A program made the position numbers and the translations under genes. 64,000 nucleotides of DNA. Source: a virus. The notes under the pieces were generated by a model, which was given only the letters and a program-made list of their open reading frames with translations, searched no databases and was not told the origin of the DNA. Location: the IMG/VR virus record IMGVR_UViG_3300009104_000006, positions 38,094 to 102,093 of that record; one strand, given 5' to 3'. Below, piece by piece: positions 37,901 to 62,464 of this stretch (positions are counted from its first letter, which is position 1; every line of letters begins with the position of its first letter).

Positions 37901-39486
37901 TGAGTATCATCATACATAATGTCGATTATATCTGCCGAGCCATCTATCTGTTGGTCGATTATCTCATCGTTGGCTCTTGGGAGTATTCTGAGGAACTCAT
38001 GCCCATCAACATGGTTTAACGTGTGTCTTCCACTATGTCCGATTTGAAATGCAGCATCTAATGAAGTGGGCCACACAACTGCATAGGGATTATCGGGGTC
38101 GGAAGTAGTAGTAGCCATTCGACTCGAATACACGAAGCCATGAGACTCGAATACCCCCTCATCTATCACCATCTGCCCCGTTCTATCCACCATCTGAGAA
38201 GAGAAGTGAGGAGGTTGATACGGCTTTCCAGTCCCGCTGTCTATCAATAAGTCTGCACCTATGACTACGAAATGATTGTCTACATCGGTGCTACGGGATG
38301 TATGAAGCACTCCTCTAATACCGCTTGTTGAATTACCATAATCGAGATGAATACTGGAAACAAGACAAGTATTAGTGTCTACATTGATATTATGAAGTCT
38401 GAGTCTCTCTGGAGGAGTTTGATTAGGTATCTTAGTATTCGGATTGATGCTACCCGGATTAACGAGTATATTGTATGGAACATGAGGAATCTTTCGCATG
38501 GTTGTTCCAGAAGAAGTGCTCTGCGTAATCTCATAATCTCCATTGCTATATGGGGAGGACGTGAAATCATAATTACCGCTAACTGTAGATAGCCCCGTTA
38601 ATTTCTTCGCAAGCGCCGTCGCTTCTGCATCAGAGAGAGTAATTTGCGAGATAGTAACAGACTGCCCTCCAACTTGAGTGCTATTCGTTGCTATATTGGT
38701 GATATTGTATATTCCCTCAATGGGACTAATCGGCTCCTCGAAACGATAGAGAAGTTGAGTGCTACCGTCTGGTAATGGAGTATTACCAGTAATATGAGTA
38801 TTCTTCAGTCCTCCATTCAGATGCACGGCTTCGATAACGCCTCTAAACTGGCCGCCCTTACCACCTACATACACATGAGCATTAGACTTAGCCAAAGTAA
38901 AATTGGTATCCTTAATGTTTTTACTGACTACAATCGACCCATTCACATACAACTCTATCGCCGTCGGTTTAACTGCTGCAACTACGTGAAGTAGAGGCCT
39001 GTGGTTACGATTTAGGTCAGTAGCATCGTCATAGGTTAAACCTGTGAATCTGTTATATGAATCATGAATCCCACCATATGAAGAAGATGGATAAACAGTG
39101 CCCTCATATCTGGTGCTCTGCTTAGTAGCGGTGCTAAGTTGAAATCTTTGAGTGCTCACACCATCCTTGAGAAAGACCTCGAATACTGCAGGGCCGGGAG
39201 TATCTACATTGCCTACGGTGAGTTTGAACTGTCCTTCCTTTTCTATCACAGTGCCGCCACAATCTGGCATTATCCAAGCCTCGATGACGAAATAATTGGA
39301 GAACTTACCAGATGAAGGAGTTAGTGCACGATGACCGTGTGGTGATTCATCGAGGATATTTCTTACATCACTCGCACCATCAAGCGTCTTATGACCAAGC
39401 GCAGTAAACTGCCCTTCTGGAATAATGATACTATCGCTCACGCCATCAAAGAAGAACGCATGATTGGAGCGGCCTATTACTGTCAT
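22939..39486 (-). CDS. Giant 5515-residue tail-tip protein with LamG-like domain
   Basis: A single uninterrupted frame of 16.5 kb, about a quarter of the window, between the tail-tip protein and hub genes and coupled to both by ATGA. Residues about 65-220 resemble a LamG/concanavalin-like sandwich: FVIEAWIMPD, HVVAAVKPTAIELYVNGSIVV, HVYVGGKGGQFRGVIEAVHLNG. Another similar segment lies at about 4300-4400 (GGAFTLMFETGLKYDGYGILA). Most of the rest is Asn/Gly/Thr/Tyr/His-rich beta-type sequence without obvious tandem repeats and without a clear signal or membrane segment. No HExxH or lysozyme motif was found by eye. The C terminus is charged (RRRQEEDTDDEMKRMDF). It likely forms the tail tip or a central fibre and may bind sugars. 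The frame itself is certain; domain calls are tentative. Confidence 0.75.
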   Translation of the reverse strand: MTVIGRSNHAFFFDGVSDSIIIPEGQFTALGHKTLDGASDVRNILDESPHGHRALTPSSGKFSNYFVIEAWIMPDCGGTVIEKEGQFKLTVGNVDTPGPAVFEVFLKDGVSTQRFQLSTATKQSTRYEGTVYPSSSYGGIHDSYNRFTGLTYDDATDLNRNHRPLLHVVAAVKPTAIELYVNGSIVVSKNIKDTNFTLAKSNAHVYVGGKGGQFRGVIEAVHLNGGLKNTHITGNTPLPDGSTQLLYRFEEPISPIEGIYNITNIATNSTQVGGQSVTISQITLSDAEATALAKKLTGLSTVSGNYDFTSSPYSNGDYEITQSTSSGTTMRKIPHVPYNILVNPGSINPNTKIPNQTPPERLRLHNINVDTNTCLVSSIHLDYGNSTSGIRGVLHTSRSTDVDNHFVVIGADLLIDSGTGKPYQPPHFSSQMVDRTGQMVIDEGVFESHGFVYSSRMATTTSDPDNPYAVVWPTSLDAAFQIGHSGRHTLNHVDGHEFLRILPRANDEIIDQQIDGSADIIDIMYDDTQKGVDKQISVNSRVDVYRETGNFKINDVVNSSTVTAAFNSYHNTSSPPAGKKKLIAIGGPNFDFTPFMLKGPVPAWKGTFNDETRKFHLRPSKESRVALLHVPQLSSTNVKFAPYVEIHYNAIDLTGASMSGTTQPLLMVEKTVPASDVATGGGSYIYDAIINAIGSGKTLYSPGGYIDIAAIAELSMNSLAMPHSMIGDVSEGYSADDELDEALTPVNYTPRADADSIQNSPPKVIVESVSSTGTHESVFNRIALNKIGQKVNLTDKGLYSRVEPHTTVDSPSAGEFDTATASSSTPIHEVFDIIDNIEIVDSATSDMRIIIQPSDRRRTNQLTNVKSLVSTSDDANTVSLMYLMSRARVRSIEETEGEGQNFTTIRCIGLSEAATSRSINEVGRGSPDSHIVKEIEPNSPVVTVTLGGPGQGAMDTKPTNQPSILAHEPYSSRRAFAAMAHKLVANFSSGADVLHVKAINNESADMQSWGTYGFPRYGRVYLADGSSGKYDSKNGTTFTFSSGTLGSGDFVSSSGVEYTSMARLLNATGFLKGVTSGTPTLEGIFTVYNEPDFGEQSRIENGSTVNDRMFQSMSDVSHDYQLGTQYASTRALAEIPFFSHQFFDSGVGPDNGFKIHIDATHTAHTWNPSPVGRRLKDVMPADREAQSAYSHALANREYINSTFITKWDASNKRLYVNDINVFPDATTSTGIYRGVTTAYRYRKVWLGNGEWAWYSGVNTGNKYLTIVDAEYGHTSNFLDSLDVGTPVFAGGIGFDDTLSPLASDEFTPSSDFEGRSEYYYDAASVKTQGGNVDYGLRQYASAVEFKAGPESNPHAEKIQSGRAVVTPLTVSSVISLTGSSKAIVLTFSDEDFKKLPNLGYDTLGTSSLGDLRYDMQYTLESGYIHSYQYHGNIKTLATANPENSITLVYHAYTKLGQSYPTASDLVGKQLTLARRGREVFGSYITSLLSEGSLAYDEAKSNLMIDENIAITAYSSTARALVEITNPTGMSVNDLHGLNVKKGDIIYYYINDTTDTLRRIGEVTSVTEPLANDKQTINLSGNTNDIPSNAKLAVWIGDYEDKDAILNTSWLNPYASGGLRNGDTVWANMSYNNPHAVEGLFAKSRGVLNEAQVWKEFNGGKGDLDTTNPRDSIPLENFLIGNTCLETARNYAQHVNRTVEENYKALGLTAAQAPTVAYVDPYLAEDGHARVLLYDTAHDREFVAFQDIHMQVQSSAQAAEIGWPKEVVEDGGTSRSRLDKVTATYNGSGPSPWTTQIDVANGFLSQNPYIRSTQQSKFIESAYAHDLANRHTLDLLESSTYANLTLPDDGRKIAGARLYGKAHGHHVHTGYSFGGTVSGLSVDNSVTPRTNDSVALYKVADGYHSFTRIPVDSFDTFTNELVRLRNGTTNCSFRDPSTFFDTPDGTRVIPAFLCLKGIRSTTLDLSSHEESRLQHLPQWKDMDFVRRLTIDCGEVAQKDGVVNTEAAAQEIVRLINQHAALNARYTDGSAHDPAPFWHTDNNDRGTHMGYIRAHIGREVQDLNGDTGYTVVIHSTVPGATGRNFCTWLDNSTGQHPYQPQFLIGHGGRWRNFWALPEEGEGENMHPAPLPLNKHGRPFTPITTLQQYITAEESGEEVRSVAEFEEDSVLRAVSDTVSGKNHNTINNESFSLKGSSSTLVKGLRVGSRATSRINFGGLVASGVPGWAPDAGIWGFGKIGDTKFNKRYGSSSVTSYSSHVPTVDKLSDAIGSGQLYGFRLKDNVGSESGLRFVYRKMGDSFANENTTLPSTIEEEVCVFFDDRDVAQGGFTVGNHMHGTGDATGRMDFGSVSETLGSWKGARWRGVHAPSIAAYVGTAVSGTKMTITFPAPFDAAFSDDKLGYLGFPRENGLIQISDIDGDGDADVGLTLSYTRRDGNVFYGITGLPSWTDTNYLITPVLNWTTLVTDELMAAVTAAAINAGREVNTEDGHIFDCTEMYAADGRTFGEWGVSENAVRIRAYNTQKPVIPLNEAFSASLHRDFGIQAAHLEFGEIEKVTRPTGTADWAFGTSRAVTDALIDDSRGIDCGYIPYTLLQIRSIARGPHANTATPNLVDSKNTPVNINEWRENLKGIRYTRSSGDHILPHIDTPHSVLNMGWASFTQMEVDNANGYPIGWTGAIAIDAGNANSVAIGDILATTDGRVIGEVTATGGTSSFTIGGGIQTNLADATVVNKRLTGSAGGVDWLLSATLGAAMFHFMIPAGNDSGNIPSFGEKKRVWLNEKDSLFAESKRGATSSTVLSWDIENAEGNITRDAPYWNNLLSLSNNRDFDGLRSIGSVFSEPVVYFRGGKSSSDHSVPLYFGGGFSGVTLDVNDGTNNDYSTFYTHPYANGPTGVAGIQNANEISTSFAMMDCNAMFAFFPGAALCNQHRGSINPPAFNRDNILSPDLGRGGSLYASTGEIKAKPVPLVLRFTHPTARYEDHVDGIDTDNKTTYIIFGPGQAFPFTQEVADAASGHNTLEPFSGRIIYTGNSWASVPSLGGSNNKFPNSIVNDQGKYRPHSKTYYNATAGFHWKAMVNWETPAGYCWKNSANSGSAGLFQRPEHGRMYGQLLNDDSIHNAEDFEQVHPKMHVPLIGYGITMGADTVFHMDGGFHAGGSWLDNQFTFNPVHPKKNTRITGGNSSSTWTRDNQIHPTAFRVAGPLMATIQDYIGSSTDFSIGNTKNEYILIDGTRCQNGEELATVVGAAINAFPGAGALKSMGGTHMPSMGNAMRQDRYGWVDLGTVGSYNHSTYPQYVESAANASQTLLEQIPASGWLRVNTDDDSEGDSVDPGWAVYHSRDVIASGGNWKVRFHLAPNAIRGQTVFEYDTTWANHKASNANSNPTTLSGNLYVWSKAGIMQFNNEDVSARDHMTQVHFSGIVDAIDRTRPVGVAGWHGERYSYLNSLKISTSVTKNDSTTTATGYAAGLGAYHSMLGFSPYGSAGSVMSTYGTVPVVAPMRHSPESTPTINGAGDNLDTYITKASLYTNYTLDANGRTPANGQGYFKDTDTTDNSNQWAKPTNYEISTTLPKELSLPQGLYSNAFLVVSYNSESSLIAKFDRDAITATGDWLHVKGEGTDPIHYAGTTLWDERFHGQDRFIAPANAGPNVEALIVDHGEQHNDSTTVPTIANAFADNSSDAPFNGDVGTYFHGAVSDDLNLKNATPGRAKTGDLLFDLDYSVGSVLLESGDAERNVSANHQDMDGTGYSYTVSGNYPNEYWMGDVNAFDMYKNSAAKNFSVEHIVWKRMDGGNLSLPTINARGLGAVPWMTRVKNNTAYTTGEKLYGNVRFTFETTNSAMLPVLQAQELAHPELLRKHPYKVGNVLTIPNEEIQFQSITVTDDAGQIHKIEGGSPLGTIIRGFRTPENRGVKGNGPALANSGKTPNLKVQLPNPDSIPGNIVVRSGFDPLQAYQNETMGTGGMIHPDLGADTIGHLFDNSVAGPRKGPTYEDHNWERIDPITFDSEVGAWVNNEPLHTSYELHDRTLFFHVCKMGHSHTHRYPTIYSHTNGVVNDSVSVTQTLGANNWNAETGVLTIDGALNTEVFNAGFGTKEAKDGRKFLRVYNPITDEGVVCSYLAENDTTMEIVGDVDFTAFMAENTTTALKVVPSYYIPGGSTRFFASRRLRDHAEVSGNSPDMAHTRYFASDTIAYNAYSKPKMTPMPYPRMGHHFITPTMPMLPGHWAHPAYQSLYNRHLADYNMSVGFTDSARFNEHATAINKKSGINNSMVTQYGGTESTSLQDNTHPMDAEINFSGINAAPSGPSDIHGGAFTLMFETGLKYDGYGILASAGSLAGAVNKAGGHSIVLEAAANYTLARHFPDPAEVGAYQIIIQPNLFNNQLVGFHNNSTTELTSQQVNTVIGINESTAKGGLTLVLAKATQADVRGCEVFINEAMLDVNPDFGSQFTNIPPLMLHNAHGIQMTESPAFTRRGFPYSTMFSDSSPGHTLHIPWWSILHKNGVPASNFRKLSQYAPDDYFMYSRNGFGSIGNQQTINGYTSTYLDIYSKLRQIVSLNPKCIVESFNTGGTITVDNANLFPLTSHYAQEIEYTAKNGDIYSKPYTKRSGNDAANVNVPNTIYLAAKSGSDNFWDNIYDGAELRLSHSYNTLSASKLLTDRKKSVFANILPDIVNGNRDTYSSYTPDAFLCMWHPNLGRPNTYFSDSRTTWGSVAVDKASYNSIPEHFETIHYHDFTHAMSAGPFDFLIMTPNISKTGETVAATTGTDHQAGGTDVMLSGFWPCGSRGGPHVSKLDLFSFASASWNVHNHSDGNPNFTSSDLREWVDSDDDGSYSVSSGITTAAMGSSRRKPYGYRNAIRQACNRPTYGLSPTRAVYETNPTGSGIKTLDYDAGPLVQTETATWTYAGGSGLSNATHPTTYVGIMERQTNFTGMLAQDQADWQVRYSDGRRMTRPFGTPVRTLTNNAGTQRDWWGDEVAMDKTSLSEASQYYLVDWWGNERGEDVRRAPVRGFGIRPAWDCGDAYENDRRNSRSPYRRIWNNAKPIFNMKGVANLSNGNVSVTTTIPRFGGTNNDVNLHATNTGHDLVDVFAPTHSMRVGDMGNGRGVRYPTRFNEDVLTELSAPIHKTGVVLSHNTAEPLFGDGLLRPRNAILQADEVKRGISAKLAIDSNGLLKPEAVASDRIEEFVGVSPHKDAISRTSPRIGIDAEVTEGIEQNHIAINTEAHSLHTDRNVGQRVVLHGGFQVGTNTIADVDYTGGAFGRQNNGSPVSAVHRYSHTNAFRPYGGSYVLDASNYAGLFDDTNWGVASLTGSNDTSNPYQDADDYTSKSVRNNEKDKNVKFLLRPIRTLDSKHTEVYRIHNSIVTGTPQYDQNYLFASSGGKYGLFTYEVSNGRAATGNLASGRSLPDGNGPYLPVFVFDPTGAFTAPTSFGPKLPGTEVSGFDKESLNSTVSRLVISDNTLQHHRSDAPRRRQEEDTDDEMKRMDFSVKPRFSQALHSKGHKGDISFSITDHSGDGA

Positions 39487-50054: not shown

Positions 50055-51221
50055 TCACTTCAAGTCCCTCAGACTTCCTTGCGACCCAAAGAAAGTGGTC
50101 CAAATCTCGCCCATTGTTCGGTAGAGTCCTTCTTGACCCAGCCTGTTGATGGCGAAGGGGTCGCCGGTCTCAATTCCCGACTCGAAGTATTGGGTCGGTA
50201 TTGCTGTGCTAAAGTGCAGGTAATCTGTATCTAAGAAGTAAACGCGACTGATAGAATCCGTCAGCATGTTCTTGGTTGGGATAATCGGGACTCCGTTGTA
50301 AGTAGCCACAATAAATCCGGCTTCCATTCCCGGAACACCCTTTACACCGTTGTAGGTGGGGGTGACTCTCTTCTCTTCCATGAACCTCTGCTGGCTCTGC
50401 AATAGTTGCTGCAGGCGCATTAGTGTGTCATATCCGGTTAGCATAACCTTGGGGTTACCACCACGGACCCAGAGTTTCTGGAACATCTCGTCAATCAAGT
50501 CGAGAGAAAGAACTCTGTCAGTTGAGACATTGCTCACTGCGTTGTTGCTCATCTCAGCGTTCGACCATGAGTTTGCACTCCTGTCGATACTGTATATGTC
50601 GAGGTCAGAGTCAGCGCTTAGATTGTCGTGACCATTAACCAGACCAGTTGTGGTAGTTGCGTTGTTGCTGTATGCTGCTGTAACTCGGTCCAAGGACTCG
50701 AAGTTGTTAGCGGCAGGTGTGTCCACATCAGTGCAAAGCATCTTGTTCACCATCTCAGCGTGATGTTTGCCCATTTCTTCCTTCATGACCGAGCGGATAT
50801 CTCCGAGGCCATCATCCTTGTCAGCGAGGAAAATCGCTGTCTCGGACATATCAAAGGTGTGTGCGATAGTCTTAGGCTTTGCAGCAACGTGCTGGAAAGT
50901 CGGCTTGACTGTCTCAGGCAGTGTTGCGTTCTCTGCAACTCCACCGTGTAGAGTGCCCGAATTGGGGCGACCAGTGATTACGCGCCATCCGCTTCGGTCC
51001 CAAGGCTTCTTGGGTAGAATACTGAAGGCGTTGAACTCTTGGTTCAGTTGCGACCAGACTTTGCGTCCATAAATTGCTTGGTAAGTTCCACCAGTGGTAG
51101 ACAGCATTGGGCTGTCTGCCTTGAGTAGTTCACTACCGGAGTAAGAATACCCCATTGCGTTCCCTGCGCCATAGTAATAGCGCTCCATGTCAGTTATTGT
51201 TCTTACGTAGTTTCGTGCCAT
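50055..51221 (-). CDS. Major capsid protein, HK97 fold
   Basis: 388 residues, directly after the protease gene. Features typical of HK97-type capsid proteins of archaeal and marine tailed viruses: a helical N terminus (MARNYVRTITDMERYYYG), a WDRSGWRVITGRP strand region, KPTFQHVAAKPKTIAHTFDM (about 110-130, P-domain strand), a long helix DIRSVMKEEMGKHHAEMVNK, an A-domain segment with NPKVMLTGYDTLMRLQQLL, and EAGFIVATYNGVPIIPTKNM near the C terminus. No separate delta domain is obvious. It builds the icosahedral shell. AGGAGATGA precedes the ATG. Confidence 0.85.
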   Translation of the reverse strand: MARNYVRTITDMERYYYGAGNAMGYSYSGSELLKADSPMLSTTGGTYQAIYGRKVWSQLNQEFNAFSILPKKPWDRSGWRVITGRPNSGTLHGGVAENATLPETVKPTFQHVAAKPKTIAHTFDMSETAIFLADKDDGLGDIRSVMKEEMGKHHAEMVNKMLCTDVDTPAANNFESLDRVTAAYSNNATTTTGLVNGHDNLSADSDLDIYSIDRSANSWSNAEMSNNAVSNVSTDRVLSLDLIDEMFQKLWVRGGNPKVMLTGYDTLMRLQQLLQSQQRFMEEKRVTPTYNGVKGVPGMEAGFIVATYNGVPIIPTKNMLTDSISRVYFLDTDYLHFSTAIPTQYFESGIETGDPFAINRLGQEGLYRTMGEIWTTFFGSQGSLRDLK

Positions 51222-51254: not shown

Positions 51255-52637
51255 TCACTCCGGGCTCAATGTCTTATCGGCCAATTGATGAACCTCATCC
51301 CAAGACATTTGTGCCAAATCCTCAGTCGAAGGAACCACTATTCCGGTGGCGCTCTCGGACTTCTTGAACTCCTCTCCTTCTTCTGCTGGTGTAGTCAAAC
51401 CATCAATGCGCTCTCCAAGTGCTTCGATGGACTTCTGGATAGACTCAAGTGGGCTGCGTGCATCGAATGCTGCTGCCTCTGCCTTGGTAATCTCGGCCTC
51501 TCTCTCGTGCGCGTAGCGTGTAGAGAACTGCTCTTCGAGACTTCCACGTAGTTCATTCTCAAGGGCTGCAGCCTTGTAAACTTCGTAAGCAGCCTCAATA
51601 TCTGAGTCTGTTAGTGAACGAGGGTCGATGAAGTCAGACTTCGCAACCTTGCCACTACCTGTAGTCTTACCGAGTGCGCCAGTTGAAGGCTTGCCACCCT
51701 CCTGCGCGCGTCCCTTAACCTGTCCAGTTCGCTGGAGATGTTGTGCTTCCATCTCTTCTGGAGTAGAGCCGAGGTTAGCCTTTTCCAAATCATCGAAGTG
51801 TGCGCGTGCGGCTTTTGTGTCCACACCGCCACTCTTCAGAGTGTCTTCCATCCAATTCAAGTAATCAGATGTAATGACGTCTGAGAACTCATTGGATTTC
51901 TCCACTGGCTCCTCAGTTGTATCTGCTGCCTCTTTCTTCTTGTCGTCCTTCTTGTCATCATCGTCCTTATCCTTACCTTCAAGGAAAGCAGGCTTCTCGC
52001 CCTTTTCCATATCATCCAAACGTGATTCCAAGCGCGTTAGAACGTCGCCCAGTTGTTTTGTCATATCATTTTCGTCGTTTTCTGTTGTCATATTGTTCAC
52101 TTCCGTGTCTTCTTTTAGTATACTGAATGTTGCTTCGGGGTTGATGCCTTTTTCACAAATCGTTATTTCGTGTAGTTCCAGTTTGCTTATTTCTTGGTAG
52201 TCGCCTCTTTTTGGGTCTGATTTTCTAACCCTTTTGAACGCTTGACCACCGATACTGAATCCTCTGAGAGCGCCTTTTCTAATCTCTGCTGAGACTTCCT
52301 TGGCTTTCTCGATGTCGTTACGGAGTTGCACTACTACAAACATCCCGACATCATCGACTTCGCTTTTCCACAACCTCCCTTCATTATCTGTGTAACTTGG
52401 AACCACATCGCCTACTTGTATATTGGAGTGCGCTAATTGGACGTTTCTGTAAGATGGATTTTCCATGAACTTACGAAATGCGTCCTTTAATGCCTCCTTT
52501 GTTATTACGTCGCCTTGCTTGTCTACAACTTCCACGCTTGCGTAGCCAGCGACAATGAGGTCGTTGCCACCCTTGAGGATGGCGATTGACTCATCGTCAT
52601 GTCTGAACAGTTGTTTACTACCGAGCACACTAACCAT
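51255..52637 (-). CDS. Prohead protease fused to scaffold-like domain
   Basis: 460 residues. Residues 1-190 match the U35/S78-type prohead serine protease: GYASVEVVDKQGDVI, VQLAHSN (His70) and RGFSIGG (Ser128), plus a later LELHEITICEKGINPEATF. From about 190 on it is acidic, Lys/Glu/Asp-rich and helical (KDKDDDDKKDDKKKEAAD), as in scaffold proteins, ending in MSWDEVHQLADKTLSPE. One protein thus supplies protease and scaffold, which is common when no separate scaffold gene is present. It matures the capsid and cleaves itself. The C-terminal motif recurs in the gene at 58811-59158. Confidence 0.85.
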   Translation of the reverse strand: MVSVLGSKQLFRHDDESIAILKGGNDLIVAGYASVEVVDKQGDVITKEALKDAFRKFMENPSYRNVQLAHSNIQVGDVVPSYTDNEGRLWKSEVDDVGMFVVVQLRNDIEKAKEVSAEIRKGALRGFSIGGQAFKRVRKSDPKRGDYQEISKLELHEITICEKGINPEATFSILKEDTEVNNMTTENDENDMTKQLGDVLTRLESRLDDMEKGEKPAFLEGKDKDDDDKKDDKKKEAADTTEEPVEKSNEFSDVITSDYLNWMEDTLKSGGVDTKAARAHFDDLEKANLGSTPEEMEAQHLQRTGQVKGRAQEGGKPSTGALGKTTGSGKVAKSDFIDPRSLTDSDIEAAYEVYKAAALENELRGSLEEQFSTRYAHEREAEITKAEAAAFDARSPLESIQKSIEALGERIDGLTTPAEEGEEFKKSESATGIVVPSTEDLAQMSWDEVHQLADKTLSPE

Positions 52638-52672: not shown

Positions 52673-55600
52673 CTAATCCTCAAGACTTCTTTCCTCTAAA
52701 TCGATAGACTGCGCGGCATTTTTCTTCGCTTTCCTCCGTCTACCGGGATAGTCCTCTGGTTTCTCCATGTCCTCTGTAGGCCGCTTTCTCATATCCCAAT
52801 CCGGTAAAGACTCTTCACTATCCAACTTCGTAGGGCCGCGTGGACTCTCGGTTCCATCGCCCACATCATATCCAAAACCTCTTCCAGCCAAATTGCTGAA
52901 TCCCTTCTCCATCGCATCTATTGCGCGTTCTATGAGAATGAGCGTTTTGTAAACGTCGTTTGGCTTCATTATCAGATTCTTATCTTTCTTTGGTTTGAGT
53001 ATGCCAGCACTCTCTTCCTCTATCCTCTCCTCATCTATCTCAGGCTCTATCTCGGTATCTTCCTTTAACATCTCACTTAATGCTATTTTCCAATAAGGCT
53101 CAAGACTCTTAGCGAGGCGTAGAGAGTAATCTGAATCAGTAAGACTACCTATTGCTGCTATTGGCTCGATTGCCTCCCCATCTACTATCTCGTATTTCAC
53201 TAAGTCCTCTGGAAGATGTATAATGAAGTGACTATCATCAATCTCCATAGAGAAAGGTATGTGGAACTCTATGTCCGATTTTGCCAATAGAACCCACTTA
53301 GGGTGCTTTTCTTCTCCCTTCATGTATGTGGACTTTGCATCTCTCAAGAGTATCTTGTCAGACTCCTTACTCAACTCCTTCACTGCATTCTCCAAACCAA
53401 CTTCATCTGTAATTCTAATGTCAGACGGGCTGGGTATGAAAACAGGGTCGTAACTATCGAACTGTCCTCTTAACACTTTAATGCGCTCACGCGTAGAGAG
53501 GTCGTATACGACATCGTCATCATAGAGTAGAATATCATTAACGTAGAACTCTCCGTCTTGCATTACGCCATCTATTACGTAATCCTTCTTTCCGATTTGT
53601 TTGAAAGCACTCCTCATCTTCTCACTCATTGATTGTTTATTACCGCTATCGTCAAATACAGTCACGCGATTCTTCTTGCATTGCACTTTGCATCTTTTTC
53701 CATCCTTATGGATTGAAACGACCCATTCACCAGTGAATCCTCTTAATTGCTTCAAATCTTCAATGTCGAATATCCTATGAAGAGGGTCAATGAGCGGAAC
53801 TTGCTTCGGCAACTCTGCTTTGTCTTTCAGCAATAGATTGGAAATATGCATTGGTTCACTGTATCTAACAGATGGGAAGTCCGCTGATGGTGGATATCCC
53901 GTATCACTGGATGGAGTTTGTTGATTAGATAAGGTCGTTTCTTCAACTGGGTGGCTATCAATCAAAGTTTGTATATGCTCATTGGAATAGTTTGGAAACA
54001 TCATCTGTAACGTTTGGAATGGCACGGTGTGATAATAGCCTTCAGTAGCATTAGTGCCTACAACGATGTTATCGTCTTCATCGTGTTCAATTCCTATTTC
54101 TGGTGTAATCAGATAGCCATCATCCATGCCGCCACTAATATAGTGGTCATGAGGAATAGCCCCTTCTCCGCTATCATGTGATTCGATTGGGACATCATTA
54201 TACCATCCTACCGCTTTCTTTCCCTCAAAAGGGTCAAATTTGGCTTGAAGTGTTTCTCCTTGTAATGCCCCCTCATCGAATACAATAATGCTGTTTGCTA
54301 TATTCTTCATGTCAGTTAAATCTCTCTTATCACCAGTCTTGTCTTTGTGGGAGAACAATAATTCTCTATCTCCCAAAGGCTCGCCTAAGACCTTCTTTTG
54401 TGCCGTCATTGGATTCTTTCTACTGTAGTTAGGAGAAGATTGGAAGGTTAATCCATAGCCCCTCAATGAGTCAGGTTGGAGATTCACAACATTCCTAATT
54501 CCTCTTAATGCAGTATGACCCTCGTGGGATTTATCCCATGCACTTCGTAAAGCGCGTTGCTTTACTTGATATTCGGTGCTCTCGCGTCCAGTTGCTGCCG
54601 AAGTCGGATAACTCTCCTGAAGTTCTTGGAGTTTATCATCTAAGACAGTGTGGATATCTTTCCCTTTCAAACTCCCATATACCGACGGTGCCGGGATTTT
54701 CTTCCCATCCTTATCGAGAACAAACTTCCCCCTCTCGTCCTTCTCGTAATTCGACTGCCATTCTATTCCTGCCGTTGCTAATTGACCGAGAGTAGCAGCA
54801 GTAAAATCACCGCCGTGCACCTTCATCATATGCTTTACGTGTTTACGATGAGGCATATCGTCTGGTAAACCGAGTTTCTTCAGAATCATATGTATTGACT
54901 CATCACCAATTATCTTGCTTCCGACTTCACCTTGCCGCATCAAAGAGGCCAATCTATATTGCTCATCTGATGAAACTCTCTCTGGAGCATCTAATGCGTC
55001 TTTTGACCCAGTAGGTCGAACCCAAGCAGCGGGAGTAGTAAGACCTCCTCCCCCTTTCTTGTAGATACTCCTCATAGCACCTTGTAATGTAGCGGCAACA
55101 TTAGCAAGCGCTTTAGGATTGGTCGGATGATATGCAGAAGGATGGGCTTTGAGAACTTCTGGAATTAAGATATCACGAGCATAATTAGTAACAGCCTTTT
55201 TGTCGCCTCGCATAACATCCTCGTCTCTATCACGCCAACCATATTTCGTTTGCTTTTGCCTTCCACCATATTCACCCCTTGTGGTATGTGTTATCTCATC
55301 CCCGTATACCTTGTTGAACTTCGCCATGAGATTATCGTATCGTCTCATTATTGGATGGTCTGCAGGCAATTCCTCTGGAGGATTCTTCGACTTCATCTCA
55401 TCGAGTATAACATTGAAGTCTTCCAACTCATCCAATAAACCGGGGTCAAGCCTATCTTGGATATTTGAGCCTTTGAAGTGAGGCATCTCTGCTAAGTAAT
55501 CCATTGCATCCATATCGGGAGATGCTCGGAAACTTGGGTTATCCTCTAAATCTTTCAAGGTCGTATGCATTCTTTCACCGGGATTACCAAAAGCGTTACG

Positions 55601-58342
55601 CCTGCCATTGGCGTGGGCTTGTAGACGCGCTAATGCTGCTACTCTTCTTATTCCATAATCTCCCGGCTGCACTCTTCGTGCTATCTCTTCATCAGTCCAT
55701 CCCTTGCGGTTTGATAATATCGGCTCGCCATCTTTGTCAAGCACGAGTTCGCCATCCTTATCTTTCTTGTATTTTGAAGGAGGTTCCTTCCATTCTTTTG
55801 CTGTATTAGTCATAGTAGCAAAATTATGAGAATTGAAATGATGAGCCATGAGGTCTCTTGTAGTTAGGTTCTTCGTTTCCATTACAAAATTCTGTGGAGA
55901 TGGGTTTTCGTGCATAAATCGAGCCATAAAGTAAGGACTGCGAGTCGAAAGATATTGTGAACTGTTCGTCTTGATATTTCTTCCGGGGTGTCTTGCAGTT
56001 CCTATCCTGTGTAATGCGTGAGTATTTGTATCAGTCATAGACATAATACCATGCGGAGTATCGTGGTAGTTCTGCCCATAAGGAAGGAAATGAGGATGAG
56101 CACGTGCCCAAAGTCCCAACGTATCGTTATTAGGAATAATTTTTCCAGACCCCTCTTGTTCTCTGTCTCCTAACTCTGACGATATTCCCTCTCCCTTATT
56201 CCAATCAATATCATCGGCATGAAAATCATGCATTATATCCACATAAGTTGAAAGTTCTCTTCCAAGCCCTCCTCTATGCGCAAATATGCGCCTACCTTGT
56301 GGAAATCCTAATCCCTTGAGCCTTCCTTCAACATCTAAGTAGTGTTCTCGCTCTTCATCAGAAATGTCTTCAGACTTTGGTCCATGATTAACGATATGTG
56401 CTCCCATTGCTGACCTCATCTGTTTTGCACTAAGCGAAAGACCAGTTGCGTGCTTTAGATTTTTGAGAATACCTCGCATGATAGACTTGTTAATCAAAGG
56501 CTCTCTTCTCCCACTAAAGAGGGGGTGGCTCTTGTGCCTTACAGTCAAATCACGATTCCAGCCCATTAAATCCAGAAATCCCTCTGTTCCCAAAGCAATG
56601 TGACTATTATTTGTGAGTTTTTCGCTCAATGCCTCCTTTGCATCCTTCCCTTCTGATAAAGCGCTTTGAATGTCTTCTATATCTCTCTCACTAAACTTTG
56701 GAAGATTCTTGGCCTTACCGATAGGTAAGTCATTTGCATCTACCCTATCCTTACCATACTCTAAGAGGCCATCTCCTTCATAGGCCTCTTCGAGTTTTTC
56801 CATCACATGCTCTAATGCGGTCTTATCATACATCTGTTTTGGTTTCTTATCCATATCTATCTCCCCAGACGCGTGTCTCACATACTGATATGGTTCGCCC
56901 TCATGGATGCCATCATCTTTGACGAGTGTATTAGCCAAAGTGCCAGCAATCATGCCTTCATCTCCATGTATGAATGAATCATGCGGCGTTTCCTTATGCT
57001 CCGGCACATTAGCGCCCGAATGCATTCTGGCACGTTGAAACCAATGCATCTCTCCTTCTTGCCTTTGCTTCTTTGTCTGCTTTATGCGAGCCATAGAAAG
57101 ACGATGCCCATCATCAAGGTCAATGTATTGGTGTTCTGGGTCGTCTGTGCCATGTGTCGCCATATGCTCCATCGCAATAGTCCTCTCTTCTGGAGAAAGG
57201 AACTCCAATCCTCTCATCAAAGTCGAATGCCCCATTCCATGAGCATGGACTTTGGTCATATCTGCTAATGATTCTATTCCCTTTTTGTCCCATTCCTCAT
57301 AGATGCTCTTACTATCCTCTGGTTTGTAGGTTATAGGAGTAATATCATTACTGAGTAATTTCTCCATCCTATCATTGAAATGCTCCTCTTCCAAGTCCTT
57401 GCCTTCTTTGTCCAGCGCTTTGACTCTATCTTTGTGCTTCTCGGTATCTTCTTCATTGAAACCTCCCCAATCACCAGTTCCATTCTTCCATCTCTCGAAG
57501 TCTCTCAATCGTAATCCATGAAGATGGTTAGTAAATTCACTTTCATGTCCATCATCTCCACCTAAGAAAGAGAAGTTCCCATCAGGAACAGAATCGTAGA
57601 TAGTCTGCGTATCATATTCCTTAGAGCCGTCTCCAATTGCATCTTTCTTCCAATGTGCTCTATGCTTCTTTTCCGCGTTTGCTACCTTCTCGGCCCATTT
57701 ATTCTTACCTAAATAGAACTCCCTAAGCATCTGTTCCCATTCTGGTTTACCAGTATCAGCGCGAATCCTCCTTAATGGGTGCACTCTTTTATCAAAAGGA
57801 TTGACGTCAGTATAATTCTCTTCTGGTTCGGTTTCAACTCCTGTCTCAACCCAACGCGCTACCCCATCCTTATCTTCGATTTTCTCCCTTACAGGTCTCG
57901 TTCTCGATGGTAGAACTTCCGGCCAGAGGCCGTGCTTCATACTGATAGGTATCTTATTTCTCTCCATAAACTGCGAATGAGTTTCCCCCTTCCTCTTCTC
58001 AGTAAATAAGGGAAAATTGAATCTATCGTTATCGTTCTTATCAAAGGCCATCTTTATTCGTTGAAGCCAAGGATGACGTGTCCCCATTTCCATATGAAAA
58101 GCAGGTCGCCATGATGCGAATGGTTGGCTGCTTCTGCCCTCTTCTGCTTTTAGAAAATCGGAACTAAACCCCTGACAGAGTTCGTCTTCTGATGTAGAAT
58201 GAAACTCTATACCGTGATTCTCCAGATTTATCGTGGAAATAACATAGTCACCGACCTCTTGCTCTGGGTCGGTGCCGTCGTATATGGCCTTCAGTAATTC
58301 AGAACGATGACGCAGATAGACATCCATTGGACCTTCTCTCAT
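52673..58342 (-). CDS. 1889-aa head-cluster protein with C-terminal ligase-like nucleotidyltransferase domain
   Basis: Very large protein between the protease and small head genes. About 1480 residues of N-terminal region are charged and His-rich, with no recognised domain. From about 1490 the sequence reads like an ATP-dependent ligase/nucleotidyltransferase: IHKDGKR (motif I, Lys1546), YVIDGVMQDGEF (motif III, with Val replacing the usual Glu), LLRDAKSTYMKGEE (motif IV region, divergent) and HPKWVLLAK (motif V). The order is right but motif III and IV residues are changed, so activity is uncertain. The end (about 1800-1889) is helical and then charged (RRRKAKKNAAQSIDLEERS). It may be packaged and enter the cell with the DNA. 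The domain call is moderate; a role in joining genome ends or modifying proteins is speculation. Confidence 0.65.
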   Translation of the reverse strand: MREGPMDVYLRHRSELLKAIYDGTDPEQEVGDYVISTINLENHGIEFHSTSEDELCQGFSSDFLKAEEGRSSQPFASWRPAFHMEMGTRHPWLQRIKMAFDKNDNDRFNFPLFTEKRKGETHSQFMERNKIPISMKHGLWPEVLPSRTRPVREKIEDKDGVARWVETGVETEPEENYTDVNPFDKRVHPLRRIRADTGKPEWEQMLREFYLGKNKWAEKVANAEKKHRAHWKKDAIGDGSKEYDTQTIYDSVPDGNFSFLGGDDGHESEFTNHLHGLRLRDFERWKNGTGDWGGFNEEDTEKHKDRVKALDKEGKDLEEEHFNDRMEKLLSNDITPITYKPEDSKSIYEEWDKKGIESLADMTKVHAHGMGHSTLMRGLEFLSPEERTIAMEHMATHGTDDPEHQYIDLDDGHRLSMARIKQTKKQRQEGEMHWFQRARMHSGANVPEHKETPHDSFIHGDEGMIAGTLANTLVKDDGIHEGEPYQYVRHASGEIDMDKKPKQMYDKTALEHVMEKLEEAYEGDGLLEYGKDRVDANDLPIGKAKNLPKFSERDIEDIQSALSEGKDAKEALSEKLTNNSHIALGTEGFLDLMGWNRDLTVRHKSHPLFSGRREPLINKSIMRGILKNLKHATGLSLSAKQMRSAMGAHIVNHGPKSEDISDEEREHYLDVEGRLKGLGFPQGRRIFAHRGGLGRELSTYVDIMHDFHADDIDWNKGEGISSELGDREQEGSGKIIPNNDTLGLWARAHPHFLPYGQNYHDTPHGIMSMTDTNTHALHRIGTARHPGRNIKTNSSQYLSTRSPYFMARFMHENPSPQNFVMETKNLTTRDLMAHHFNSHNFATMTNTAKEWKEPPSKYKKDKDGELVLDKDGEPILSNRKGWTDEEIARRVQPGDYGIRRVAALARLQAHANGRRNAFGNPGERMHTTLKDLEDNPSFRASPDMDAMDYLAEMPHFKGSNIQDRLDPGLLDELEDFNVILDEMKSKNPPEELPADHPIMRRYDNLMAKFNKVYGDEITHTTRGEYGGRQKQTKYGWRDRDEDVMRGDKKAVTNYARDILIPEVLKAHPSAYHPTNPKALANVAATLQGAMRSIYKKGGGGLTTPAAWVRPTGSKDALDAPERVSSDEQYRLASLMRQGEVGSKIIGDESIHMILKKLGLPDDMPHRKHVKHMMKVHGGDFTAATLGQLATAGIEWQSNYEKDERGKFVLDKDGKKIPAPSVYGSLKGKDIHTVLDDKLQELQESYPTSAATGRESTEYQVKQRALRSAWDKSHEGHTALRGIRNVVNLQPDSLRGYGLTFQSSPNYSRKNPMTAQKKVLGEPLGDRELLFSHKDKTGDKRDLTDMKNIANSIIVFDEGALQGETLQAKFDPFEGKKAVGWYNDVPIESHDSGEGAIPHDHYISGGMDDGYLITPEIGIEHDEDDNIVVGTNATEGYYHTVPFQTLQMMFPNYSNEHIQTLIDSHPVEETTLSNQQTPSSDTGYPPSADFPSVRYSEPMHISNLLLKDKAELPKQVPLIDPLHRIFDIEDLKQLRGFTGEWVVSIHKDGKRCKVQCKKNRVTVFDDSGNKQSMSEKMRSAFKQIGKKDYVIDGVMQDGEFYVNDILLYDDDVVYDLSTRERIKVLRGQFDSYDPVFIPSPSDIRITDEVGLENAVKELSKESDKILLRDAKSTYMKGEEKHPKWVLLAKSDIEFHIPFSMEIDDSHFIIHLPEDLVKYEIVDGEAIEPIAAIGSLTDSDYSLRLAKSLEPYWKIALSEMLKEDTEIEPEIDEERIEEESAGILKPKKDKNLIMKPNDVYKTLILIERAIDAMEKGFSNLAGRGFGYDVGDGTESPRGPTKLDSEESLPDWDMRKRPTEDMEKPEDYPGRRRKAKKNAAQSIDLEERSLED

Positions 58343-58811: not shown

Positions 58812-59158
58812 CAATACATCTCCTTTACTTCTCTATGTTGGTCTGCCATATCATGTATCTCATCCCAACTCATTTCGTGAATCTCAGTATTGCTAAACTT
58901 ATCTGGGTCAGAGGAGTCTGCCTCTGCCTTGAGAAGTCCGCCAGTCTGCACATCTGCTCTGAATGCATCCACTTCAACATCCTCTGATAGAGGAGTGCCG
59001 AAAGGGACAAAACCTGCTTTACGTAGGAGAACTTTTGGATTATCCATCATTCTCTTGAGAATAAGATTCTCTGCCTTTAGCGTCTGAACCTCATTATCCA
59101 TACTCTCCATCTTAGAGATGAGAGTATTCATGAGTTTTCCTGCGTCTCCTTCTTCCAT
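58811..59158 (-). CDS. Coiled-coil head protein with C-terminal MSWDE motif
   Basis: 115 residues. N-terminal coiled coil (MNTLISKMESMDNEVQTLKA, continuing ENLILKRMM). The C terminus carries HEMSWDEIHDMADQH, closely matching the C terminus of the protease/scaffold protein (QMSWDEVHQLADKT). The shared ending suggests both bind the same partner, for example capsid protein or portal, during head assembly. Scaffold-assisting function inferred; no known family. Confidence 0.6.
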   Translation of the reverse strand: MEEGDAGKLMNTLISKMESMDNEVQTLKAENLILKRMMDNPKVLLRKAGFVPFGTPLSEDVEVDAFRADVQTGGLLKAEADSSDPDKFSNTEIHEMSWDEIHDMADQHREVKEMY

Positions 59159-59549: not shown

Positions 59550-61322
59550 TTACGCGCCCTTTATTCGTCTTGCGTTTAGCAGCGCACGACTATTATCCTG
59601 CGCTAATGAGTTCTGTGGTCCCCTCTGTTGAACTGATGAAACAGGGGAGCCTATACCGAAAGATGTTCGGCTTTGTGGCGAGGCTGGTCCTCTTGGCGTT
59701 CTTATTCCCATTCCCTCTCCTCCGGGTTGTGATGGCGGCATTACCTGATTGAGTGGCATACCGGGTGGCATTCCTCCATGCGGCATTCCTCCACGTTGTG
59801 CCATTCCCGGCGGCATCATTCCATTAGGCATCATTCCAGTGCCGGGCGGCATTCCTTGCGGCGGTGCCATTCCGGGCGGCATTGGTGGCGCTCCATCCTG
59901 TTGAGGGTCCATTTGACGATAAGTAAAGCGTATATCTCTGTCTCCTTCCTCCATGAGTTCGGGCTTGTAGCCAAGCATCATCATTCTCTGAGCAAGATTT
60001 ACTTCCATTTCGTCTCGTCGCAAACGAGTAATTTCATCCTCTTCCTCATTAGGATAGAGAGTGAGTTTCCAATCTGTGACGTCCATTTCTTTAAGCATAC
60101 GAGGGAAAAGCACGTCAGTGTAAACCTTCTGACCGAACTCGACAGCCCGATTAGTTACAAGAATCTGCATTCCCTCGTTATTCAAACCGCCACTCTTACC
60201 ACTATCAATCATGAAAATGCTACTTACACCAAAGAAAGCGGCTATACGATTCCTCATCTCATCTCTAACTGAAATATACTGCATTTCCTCAAGAGTGTCC
60301 ATGAACTTAACCCAATTCACTCCACCTCTTCCAGTCTGACTCTCTATGCCAACTTTTGGTATGTAATGTGGGTCACGCTCCATTTTCTCATCAACAGTCT
60401 TCCAAAATGACTTCATCGATTCAAGATTATCAGTGGTAACAGATATGATTCCTTTCGGACTCCTTCTCTTCTGATATGCTGTATACATGTAATTATCCAT
60501 TGCCGTCAAAGTCATGGCTTGTCGCCACATGGTATTAACTGGGCTCTTACCATACAACTTGGATGGATTGTATTTACTGATATGGAGAACCTCTCCTTCC
60601 AGATAATACTGTGTCTTCCCACTTCCTGCCATATTGGCATAGTGGGCTTCCTGCATGTTATTTCCACAGACTTGGCATTTCTCGTCTTGTCCGGGATAGG
60701 AAACTTGGTCACGATGGAGAGGACATACTTTGTATCTACCACCACGAACTCCGCGCTTATCTGAGATGATTCTCATGAATATCGGGTCGCCTCTGATGAT
60801 TTCCTTTACTCGATAGAACTTCATATCTGATGTCTCAGGGTCTACGAAGTATTCCTTAACGCAAATCAAGAATGCATCATCCACTATATTGAGGTCTTTC
60901 TCAATCTCAGCCATTATGTGCATGAAGTTCTGTTCCATCGAATTTTGCTGCTCAAGAAGCCATTTAGGATAGATTAGTTGATTTACATCTGGCGTCTTCA
61001 GTTGCCCGCCACATAGATTACATTGTTCTACTTCATTCTTGTATTCCTCACCACAGTCCATACACTTGTGCTGAAACTTCTTTTCCCAATAGTAGCCTCG
61101 TCTGAATATCTCCTGCGCTAATTTAGAAATGACTGTTCGCAGTATGAGATTCTCGTGCGTGACCGCATATAGCGCGGGTAGTGTAATACCCTGCGCTAAG
61201 ACTGGTTCCTGTATACCGGTAGTATAGAGGGGCATCTGCGGTTCTGGCGTAGTTCGACTTCTGAATGGCGCCGAGACTCTTCTTAGGAATCCGCGTATTC
61301 CTCCTTCTTCTTCATCTGCCAT
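59550..61322 (-). CDS. Portal protein with embedded zinc ribbons
   Basis: 590 residues from the ATG at 61322 (TGATG overlap). Portal features: VTHENLILRTVISKLAQEIFRRG, then YGKSPVNTMWRQAMTLTAMDNY (clip/stem region), IAAFFGVSSIFMIDSG and GLNNEGMQILVTNRAVEFGQ, typical of archaeal and marine viral portals. Two metal sites interrupt the fold: CMDC...CNLC (Cys87, Cys90, Cys101, Cys104) and CPLH...CQVC (about 205-225). The C-terminal 120 residues are low-complexity Pro/Gly/Met/Gln (PPGM-type repeats). It forms the dodecameric DNA gate at one capsid vertex and docks the terminase encoded upstream. Confidence 0.88.
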   Translation of the reverse strand: MADEEEGGIRGFLRRVSAPFRSRTTPEPQMPLYTTGIQEPVLAQGITLPALYAVTHENLILRTVISKLAQEIFRRGYYWEKKFQHKCMDCGEEYKNEVEQCNLCGGQLKTPDVNQLIYPKWLLEQQNSMEQNFMHIMAEIEKDLNIVDDAFLICVKEYFVDPETSDMKFYRVKEIIRGDPIFMRIISDKRGVRGGRYKVCPLHRDQVSYPGQDEKCQVCGNNMQEAHYANMAGSGKTQYYLEGEVLHISKYNPSKLYGKSPVNTMWRQAMTLTAMDNYMYTAYQKRRSPKGIISVTTDNLESMKSFWKTVDEKMERDPHYIPKVGIESQTGRGGVNWVKFMDTLEEMQYISVRDEMRNRIAAFFGVSSIFMIDSGKSGGLNNEGMQILVTNRAVEFGQKVYTDVLFPRMLKEMDVTDWKLTLYPNEEEDEITRLRRDEMEVNLAQRMMMLGYKPELMEEGDRDIRFTYRQMDPQQDGAPPMPPGMAPPQGMPPGTGMMPNGMMPPGMAQRGGMPHGGMPPGMPLNQVMPPSQPGGEGMGIRTPRGPASPQSRTSFGIGSPVSSVQQRGPQNSLAQDNSRALLNARRIKGA

Positions 61323-62464
61323 CAAATCGCCTCCGCCCACTTATTCACTTGGTCGGCCTCTATACCCCACTCGGCCAGTAGGGCATTAGCCTTATTGGTA
61401 TCGTCACTCCAATTGCTATACCTTACTACTTTCTTCAATTCGTCTTTCTTCAGACTATCTCCTTCTTCTATGAAAGCGAGCACTGCTTTTGCTTGAGTCG
61501 CTTTCATTTGTAAGAATGGCAAAACCCCTTTCAGTAGTTTTGCTATATCCGCTTTAGAATAGAATTGAAGGCGATGTTGACTACGTTGATTATCACTATA
61601 CACCTTTTGGTCTAATTGTAGTATACCGCAATCTAAGGTTTTCTGCAGTTGTTCGCAATGTATCTTACCTCTATTCCCCGTCGCTATGAAACCAGCGCGA
61701 GGCTCACCTCTCTTTGTAATTGTGATATAGCCATCGGCATCAAGGAATCCAGCAGCATACGCCCATGGGTCTTTGATAATGAGACCGGTCTTATCCATCT
61801 TGACAAAAGTCCCTCTTCCTGCTCCTCCAATAATATCAATCTCCTCACCATACATTGAGAGTAATTTTGCTAATTTCATGGACGTCATACTCTTATGGAG
61901 AATCTTCTTTTCAGATAAGTTTTCAAAAATCATCCTTCCTGTCATTGGGCCTTTACTTTGTAGAATCTCAGCACTCTTGACAAGTGTTTCCTTCTCTTTA
62001 TTGGTTAATCTTTCCATTTGATGAAGTGCGGTCTTCCATATTAGTCTGGCATCTCTCTTTGCTTCCATCGCTTCTACCCAAGTCTTCTTTTCCGAATCGC
62101 CCCATACATCTTCATATTCTTCGAGCATCTTAAGTGTATCATCTGCATTATCCCATTGGCGACAAGCCCTTTGAAGAGTAATACTCCTTGACTCTCCAAA
62201 CTTTCTGAGTGCTTTCATATTGCGGTCAGTAAGTCCTAATTCCTTGATAGTATCAGAATAGGGTTCACTCCAATCATGCACCTTCAATGTAGCATCAACT
62301 TCCATAATTTTCAACGCTCTAATATCATCTATTGCTTTGTCTATGAAATCCTTATCTTGTTTATTGTGCCTTCTGGCTTTCTTTAGACGCTTCACTAATT
62401 CAGATGCTGAAAAACCAAGATTGGCTTCAAACCAACCGTCTCCATTATCTGGAAAAATGCCCAT
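61322..62464 (-). CDS. LAGLIDADG domain protein with winged-helix region, in packaging cassette
   Basis: 380 residues. Residues about 1-165 are helical and charged. About 170-228 reads like a winged helix (KGPMTGRMIFENLSEKKI, then MKLAKLLSMYGEEIDIIGG). About 233-380 is a single-motif LAGLIDADG domain: YAAGFLDADGYITITKR, then IHCEQLQKTLDCGILQLDQ and LPFLQMKATQAKAVLAFIEEG. A single motif implies a homodimeric homing endonuclease or a domesticated DNA-binding protein. It lies exactly between terminase and portal, where small terminase genes often sit, and is coupled to portal. It could be a free-standing homing endonuclease, but the two extra domains suggest a packaging-related adaptor. Confidence 0.72.
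   Translation of the reverse strand: MGIFPDNGDGWFEANLGFSASELVKRLKKARRHNKQDKDFIDKAIDDIRALKIMEVDATLKVHDWSEPYSDTIKELGLTDRNMKALRKFGESRSITLQRACRQWDNADDTLKMLEEYEDVWGDSEKKTWVEAMEAKRDARLIWKTALHQMERLTNKEKETLVKSAEILQSKGPMTGRMIFENLSEKKILHKSMTSMKLAKLLSMYGEEIDIIGGAGRGTFVKMDKTGLIIKDPWAYAAGFLDADGYITITKRGEPRAGFIATGNRGKIHCEQLQKTLDCGILQLDQKVYSDNQRSQHRLQFYSKADIAKLLKGVLPFLQMKATQAKAVLAFIEEGDSLKKDELKKVVRYSNWSDDTNKANALLAEWGIEADQVNKWAEAI

Follow-up and report, generated by a model that had tools for sequence, protein, structure and literature searches.

Two otherwise unrelated head proteins of a tailed virus from the sea carry nearly the same short peptide at their C termini, and the two copies are kept together in its relatives. 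We consider it probable that this tail is a C-terminal docking peptide of two scaffold-type proteins, and that both would use it to reach the same socket, most likely on the major capsid protein (MCP). One of the two, PRO, is a protease of family S78 fused to a candidate scaffold region; the other, CC, is a small protein encoded close to the portal. The analysis started from what is called here the window, a stretch of 64 kb that belongs to the 102,093-base virus record IMGVR_UViG_3300009104_000006.

The source virus and its head module

PolB, a chaperonin and nucleases are encoded on one strand of the window virus, and the portal, TerL, S78 protease and HK97-fold MCP on the opposite strand. 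Magroviruses of Poseidoniales (order Magrovirales; Aoguangviridae and relatives) are reported to carry a portal, a terminase, an HK97-fold MCP and a caudovirus prohead serine protease (PMC10160649, PMC10768690). The features taken here as marks of Magrovirales were all found, namely PolB, chaperonin, portal, TerL, S78 protease and HK97-fold MCP, arranged in two oppositely transcribed clusters. PolB and the chaperonin were named by eye from the translations, and the assignment was made by comparing gene content and strands with PMC10768690. The window virus fits a magrovirus, a tailed virus of marine Poseidoniales archaea. The host assignment is supported by L421, a relative from the sister clade described below, which is a 106-kb contig (CACGHY010000002.1) in the Poseidoniales single cell AG-422-I20 and carries the head module. 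A scaffold, CC and the shared tail of magroviruses are not described in PMC10160649, in which the word 'scaffold' is absent, or in the short profile PMC10768690.

The head module lies on the minus strand in the order TerL, endonuclease-like ORF, portal, P116, CC, P108, a 1889-aa protein, PRO and MCP (Table 1). The PRO gene adjoins that of the MCP, with the stop of the former at 51255 and the start of the latter at 51221. PRO scored 39.8 bits against Pfam Peptidase_S78, above the gathering score of 21. Its S78 domain covers residues 28-179 of 460 and is followed by 280 further residues that end in the tail; this C-terminal region presumably acts as a scaffold. The preliminary description had called PRO a protease/scaffold protein. 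That name agrees with the gene, which encodes an S78 protease followed by a long C-terminal region and lies directly upstream of that of the MCP. The scaffold part of the name is further backed by a third lineage, in which a stand-alone scaffold-like protein encoded upstream of the MCP bears a divergent form of the tail and the protease is another gene. CC matched no Pfam or PHROG family. The structure model of the MCP matched the capsids of Mic1, SU10, T5 and HK97 in Foldseek, and its sequence gave no match to the sequences of solved structures.

Two large reading frames of the window deserve mention. The 1889-aa protein of the head module (52673-58342, minus strand) has a weak ATP-dependent DNA ligase-like match near its C-terminal end (Pfam E 0.009, below the cut-off), and the tail module holds a single open reading frame of 5515 aa (window 22939-39486, minus strand). 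A ligase-like protein of 877 aa with a possible intein is also encoded in the head region of the distant virus L349.

Table 1. Coordinates of the head-module genes, tail copies and candidate elements in the window
Feature	Position	Strand	Remark
Portal protein	59550..61340	-	Pfam Phage_portal 5.1e-11
CC, 115 aa	58811..59158	-	second gene downstream of portal
PRO, 460 aa, S78-type prohead protease in N-terminal half and putative C-terminal scaffold region	51255..52637	-	Pfam Peptidase_S78 6.6e-10; PHROGs head maturation protease
MCP, SU10_MCP, HK97 fold, 388 aa	50055..51221	-	Pfam SU10_MCP 1.3e-9; PHROG major head protein 5e-59
Shared tail copy 1, PRO S437-K455, STEDLAQMSWDEVHQLADK	51273..51329	-	90/90 distinct PRO relatives keep the tail
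Shared tail copy 2, CC S89-Q107, SNTEIHEMSWDEIHDMADQ	58838..58894	-	63/63 distinct CC relatives keep the tail
Candidate protease cut site F-K-K-S-E before tail copy 1, PRO 424-428	51354..51368	-	
Candidate cut site L-L-K-A-E before tail copy 2, CC 75-79	58922..58936	-	
Candidate cut site L-L-K-A-D, MCP 32-36	51114..51128	-	
Candidate nested scaffold, 278 aa, internal start at PRO Met183, without protease, same tail	51255..52091	-	putatively translated

The two tails

It had been noticed from the sequence that the end of PRO is nearly repeated at the end of CC, and this likeness was confirmed by two kinds of comparison. In pairwise BLASTP, PRO 437-455 and CC 89-107 are identical at 9 of 19 positions and similar at 15 of 19 (E=6e-5). 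When the family profiles were compared with each other, 25 columns were aligned with E=1e-7. The two proteins had been described as unrelated in all other respects, which is borne out: pairwise BLASTP found no likeness between PRO and CC outside the tails, and the family profiles gave no match after tail removal. The absence of similarity without the tails rules out CC as a paralogue of the scaffold half of PRO. The distance from the end of the tail to the C terminus is 5 residues in PRO and 8 residues in CC. The PRO copy had been placed at 51255-51320; the similarity begins slightly upstream of the proposed start, at 51329, since it includes S-x-x-[DE]-[LI]-x-x.

The consensus of the tails is M-S-W-[DE]-[DE]-[VI]-H-x-[LM]-A, in which the Trp, His and Ala are invariant in PRO and CC over 100 distinct tail/MCP sets. 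Searched as a degenerate DNA pattern, W[DE][DE][VI]H is encoded exactly twice in the 102,093-base genome, and the two places are the two tails; a control with the reversed pattern gave zero matches in the same genome. Each tail has its own signature as well. At W+3, PRO always has Val and CC always has Ile (100/100 genomes), and a second signature is found at W-4 (A/H). The fixed difference at W+3 indicates that each copy is separately selected.

Conservation of the tails in relatives

Two scans of IMG/VR, one by MCP and the other by PRO, provided 155 loci including the window's own. The tail is kept in every distinct PRO and every distinct CC of these loci (Table 1), and the motif was found in no other ORF of the 155. 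A larger set from the window's lineage contained 212 loci with both complete genes, and in each of them both proteins keep W..[VI]H.[LM]A; this count was not deduplicated by contig, has L349 among the loci with a PRO tail, and uses a pattern that also allows Ile. Loci in which the motif is present in PRO or CC and lost from the other numbered 0 in this set. At 143 further loci PRO has the tail and CC is not on the DNA compared. An unbiased scan of IMG/VR with a degenerate DNA pattern for M.W[DE][DE][VI]H.[LM]A returned at least 123 matches. Among the matches listed, 79 are PRO, 42 are CC, one is a PRO fragment at a locus edge and one is a new protein (L217), the motif being almost confined in these to the PRO and CC gene families.

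The preliminary description had proposed a docking peptide used twice and had named co-conservation of the two motifs in relatives as one check. That proposal is supported by the 212 loci with both copies and by the lack of any locus that keeps a single one. The co-conservation extends to a virus with 45% MCP identity, in which the PRO copy is divergent, and both tails are changed in a sister clade.

The codons give a view of how the likeness has been maintained. At shared tail residues the codons are identical in 39% of 389 cases. For the Ser of MSW, the window has TCT in the PRO gene and AGT in the CC gene, and each family uses codons of both classes. Since shared residues have the same codon in only 39% of cases, the likeness is old and maintained by selection at the protein level, not the product of recent copying. 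The codon divergence rules out that the tail DNA was recently duplicated or underwent gene conversion, and chance similarity is ruled out by the profile match, the genome-wide uniqueness and the 212-locus co-conservation. A coincidence, or a recent gene duplication without function, has the shortness of the motif in its favour and nothing else. Against it stand the E value between the families, the 212/212 co-conservation, the diverged codons and the lack of similarity beyond the tail, and we regard its probability as negligible. The data separate a shared docking peptide from chance very well. Inside the window's clade the two tails covary weakly (partial Mantel r of 0.21), and a test on independent pairs was without power.

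A joint change in the sister clade and the tails of distant viruses

In the sister clade, PRO ends in ...PTHEEFAxMGxxLDGWRAxEDLARRALRGE and CC in ...KSRxDELxEWEDAEREM. The Trp is kept. At W+4 the window's clade and L349 have His, whereas both proteins of the sister clade have Glu (60/60 loci with both). Within the sister clade the PRO and CC tails are weakly similar to each other (hhalign E=0.07). In the MCP tree the sister clade groups as one branch with good support, either beside the window's lineage or within it. As the clade forms a single branch, the change in both proteins probably took place on one branch, and the joint switch from His to Glu is probably one event in one clade. Both tails are kept in all readable relatives and were changed together in one lineage, so that PRO and CC very probably use the same socket. 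The MCPs of the two clades are fixed differently at 13 positions, for example E148M and D241N. These positions were considered as possible socket residues and set aside, since divergence alone suffices to explain them.

The new protein from the motif scan, L217, comes from a distant archaeal-type virus whose MCP is 45% identical. In that virus a 154-aa protein has the motif SNEELLKMSWEEVHKLAQ at its end and is encoded after the portal and a MuF-like gene, which is the position of CC; PRO of this virus has a divergent copy of the tail at its C terminus, TTPWIEVHKIAKNF (PWIEVHKIAKNF). L285 and L293 encode, directly upstream of the MCP, a scaffold-like protein distinct from the protease; its C-terminal sequence, QELSKMTWREVEDYV or FKDISKMSWEELNVL, matches the tail HMM weakly (E about 1). 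A tail on a scaffold-like protein apart from the protease argues against a protease-recognition tag as the main role.

The sequence data establish that the two tails behave in the same way; they do not name the partner. CC is encoded two genes from the portal both in clade A and in L349, and the shared peptide might dock instead onto the portal, the S78 protease domain or another head protein that gathers CC and PRO. We think such a socket rather unlikely. In the systems for which there is evidence, scaffold C termini bind the capsid protein (PMC5644958, PMC12474303), and the divergent tail of L285 and L293, carried apart from the protease directly upstream of the MCP, speaks against a protease-specific role. 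By analogy with these known systems, the MCP would be the best candidate for the socket.

Structure models of the tails

The AlphaFold2 model of CC (mean pLDDT 73) has an N-terminal helix at residues 3-39, a weakly structured linker and a tail of two helices, 90-94 and 98-108. The AlphaFold2 model of the PRO tail has two short helices like those of the CC tail, at low confidence. Both tails are predicted to form similar helical hairpins. PRO reads into the MCP in frame when TGA is Trp (genetic code table 4), and the PRO tail and the MCP were folded as a single linked chain. The resulting AlphaFold2 model had a mean pLDDT of 62 and a pTM of 0.62, with no reliable contact at this confidence.

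Two similar short hairpins could also pair with each other, and the tails would then act as a clasp, homotypic or heterotypic, by which CC is held to the protease-scaffold. A coupled change of both tails would follow from such pairing. For simple self-pairing there would be no need for each tail to keep its own signature, V/I at W+3 and A/H at W-4, and we hold the clasp to be very improbable.

Candidate cleavage sites

The motif hxK[SA][DE] occurs about 12-fold above shuffled sequence in the MCP, PRO and CC families, and zero times in the portal family. It looks like a recognition site of the S78 protease, at which cleavage is predicted. One candidate site stands upstream of each tail and another near the N terminus of the MCP; the motif is also present at other PRO sites in the window. 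The KAD of the MCP is conserved to HVTV-1. The A-D is present in vir519 as well, where the K is N, and the retention of A-D with Asn in place of Lys means that LLKAD in the MCP could be structural instead. No mature N termini of HVTV-1 proteins against which to test the K|A site were found in the open papers searched.

With a candidate cut site before its tail, its small size and its long helix, CC could alternatively be cargo, that is, an internal head protein on which the scaffold's tail serves as a loading signal in the manner of a capsid targeting sequence; the same sequence facts speak for this reading. The capsid targeting sequence of T4 is an N-terminal loading peptide that ends in a protease site, unlike the tail, which is C-terminal in both PRO and CC. 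CC also consists mostly of helix and linker, with no recognisable cargo domain. A cargo role is, in our estimate, quite unlikely.

A candidate nested scaffold

A second product may be encoded inside the PRO gene. Met183 (52091) is a conserved Met located just after the protease domain, and is preceded at 52104-52097 by GGAAGTGA, a Shine-Dalgarno-like sequence that matches GGAGGTGA at 7/8 positions. Of 247 PRO genes, 81% have a match of at least 6/8 to GGAGGTGA ahead of an internal Met; synonymous shuffles reach this in 33% of cases, and other internal Mets are preceded by such a match in 8%. The codons that make up the signal differ from lineage to lineage (AAGGAGGA, AAGGTGA and GGAAGTGA). These observations suggest that the PRO gene also yields a nested, protease-free scaffold that ends in the same tail.

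The proposed docking model and known systems

In the model that we favour, the tails of PRO and CC, 19-25 residues in length, would dock into one socket, most probably on the MCP, during head building, and an inner core would assemble from the remainder of PRO and the long CC helix through oligomerisation. The core would bring the protease into the shell, and CC, encoded two genes from the portal, may bring in the portal. At maturation the S78 protease would cut hxK|[SA][DE] just upstream of the tails, and the core would be freed and removed.

Two known systems offer a comparison. The scaffold protein SP of 80alpha and CpmB of SaPI1 bind the same site of the capsid protein through a shared C-terminal helix and RIIK hook (PMC5644958). 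Like SP and CpmB, PRO and CC are different proteins with a common short C-terminal motif and nothing else in common. In 80alpha/SaPI1 the second protein belongs to a parasite and competes with the first, whereas both proteins are core genes of one virus here, and neither SP nor CpmB carries a protease, unlike PRO. The tail MSWDEVH is unrelated in sequence to the RIIK hook; PRO and CC may work like SP and CpmB but are not members of that group by sequence.

In herpesviruses, the protease-scaffold and the scaffold share an MCP-binding C terminus that is cut off by the protease (PMC12474303; PMC7920273). The common tail of pUL26/pUL80, a protease-scaffold fusion, and pUL26.5/pUL80.5, a protease-free scaffold, has roughly 25 residues. 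PRO resembles this system in that its protease is fused N-terminally to a candidate scaffold region, and the candidate nested start would produce the same arrangement. The herpesvirus tail is shared by way of overlapping genes, whereas PRO and CC are encoded separately and their bodies are unrelated. The PRO protease is of a different family, S78, and MCP binding and cleavage of the PRO and CC tails are predictions here.

An extended form of the docking model is conceivable, although we consider it doubtful as a whole. It would be a three-part, herpesvirus-like scaffold made of the protease-scaffold, the nested protease-free scaffold and CC, the last of which would sit beside the portal and nucleate the portal vertex. 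All three would carry the same MCP-binding tail, clipped by the S78 protease, and with the same plug on unrelated proteins the copies would be forced to change together.

Docking tails of this kind are known; the new variant, as far as openly searchable papers show, is their presence on two separately encoded proteins of one virus, one of which is a protease-scaffold, and their retention throughout an abundant archaeal virus group. If the docking model is true, the principle of one socket for two scaffolds, as in 80alpha/SaPI1 and herpesviruses, would extend to archaeal viruses and operate within a single genome. Scaffold proteins diverge fast and are rarely recognisable in uncultured viruses, and the incorporation of the portal at one vertex is an open question in tailed-virus assembly. 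Here two assembly proteins can be picked out by a short and near-invariant peptide in hundreds of genome fragments from abundant marine archaeal viruses, and the tail names CC as a candidate second scaffold beside the portal gene. The tail residues Trp, His/Glu at W+4 and Ala are the points at which the model is testable.

Haloarchaeal relatives and other shared modules

HVTV-1, HCTV-1 and HCTV-5 (Druskaviridae) share with the window the order of portal, large head-region proteins, protease and MCP. The window MCP is 32-33% identical to theirs over 99% of the query, with tblastn E values down to 2e-51. The protease C termini of the three viruses are without the motif, and no CC protein was found in them. 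As the tail motif is absent from the haloarchaeal Druskaviridae, with MCPs about 33% identical, the socket, if it is on the MCP, would not be ancestral to the whole family.

The head regions of these and other distant viruses contain further elements of note. At 12822-14650 of L349, an HNH-endonuclease-like ORF splits the MCP frame into an N-terminal and a C-terminal part, like an intron or a mobile endonuclease insertion. Different head-region proteins of L156 and L157 (HVTV-1, HCTV-1), L285, L293 and L349 share a module of the approximate form [RK][VI]Y[VI]xxPxxAPxGxxVxxGxxGGxYY. The haloviruses additionally share KEWVSDPTEQAPNRWTNTxTGEHRYQE among head-region proteins. These modules are possibly another shared loading or docking element.
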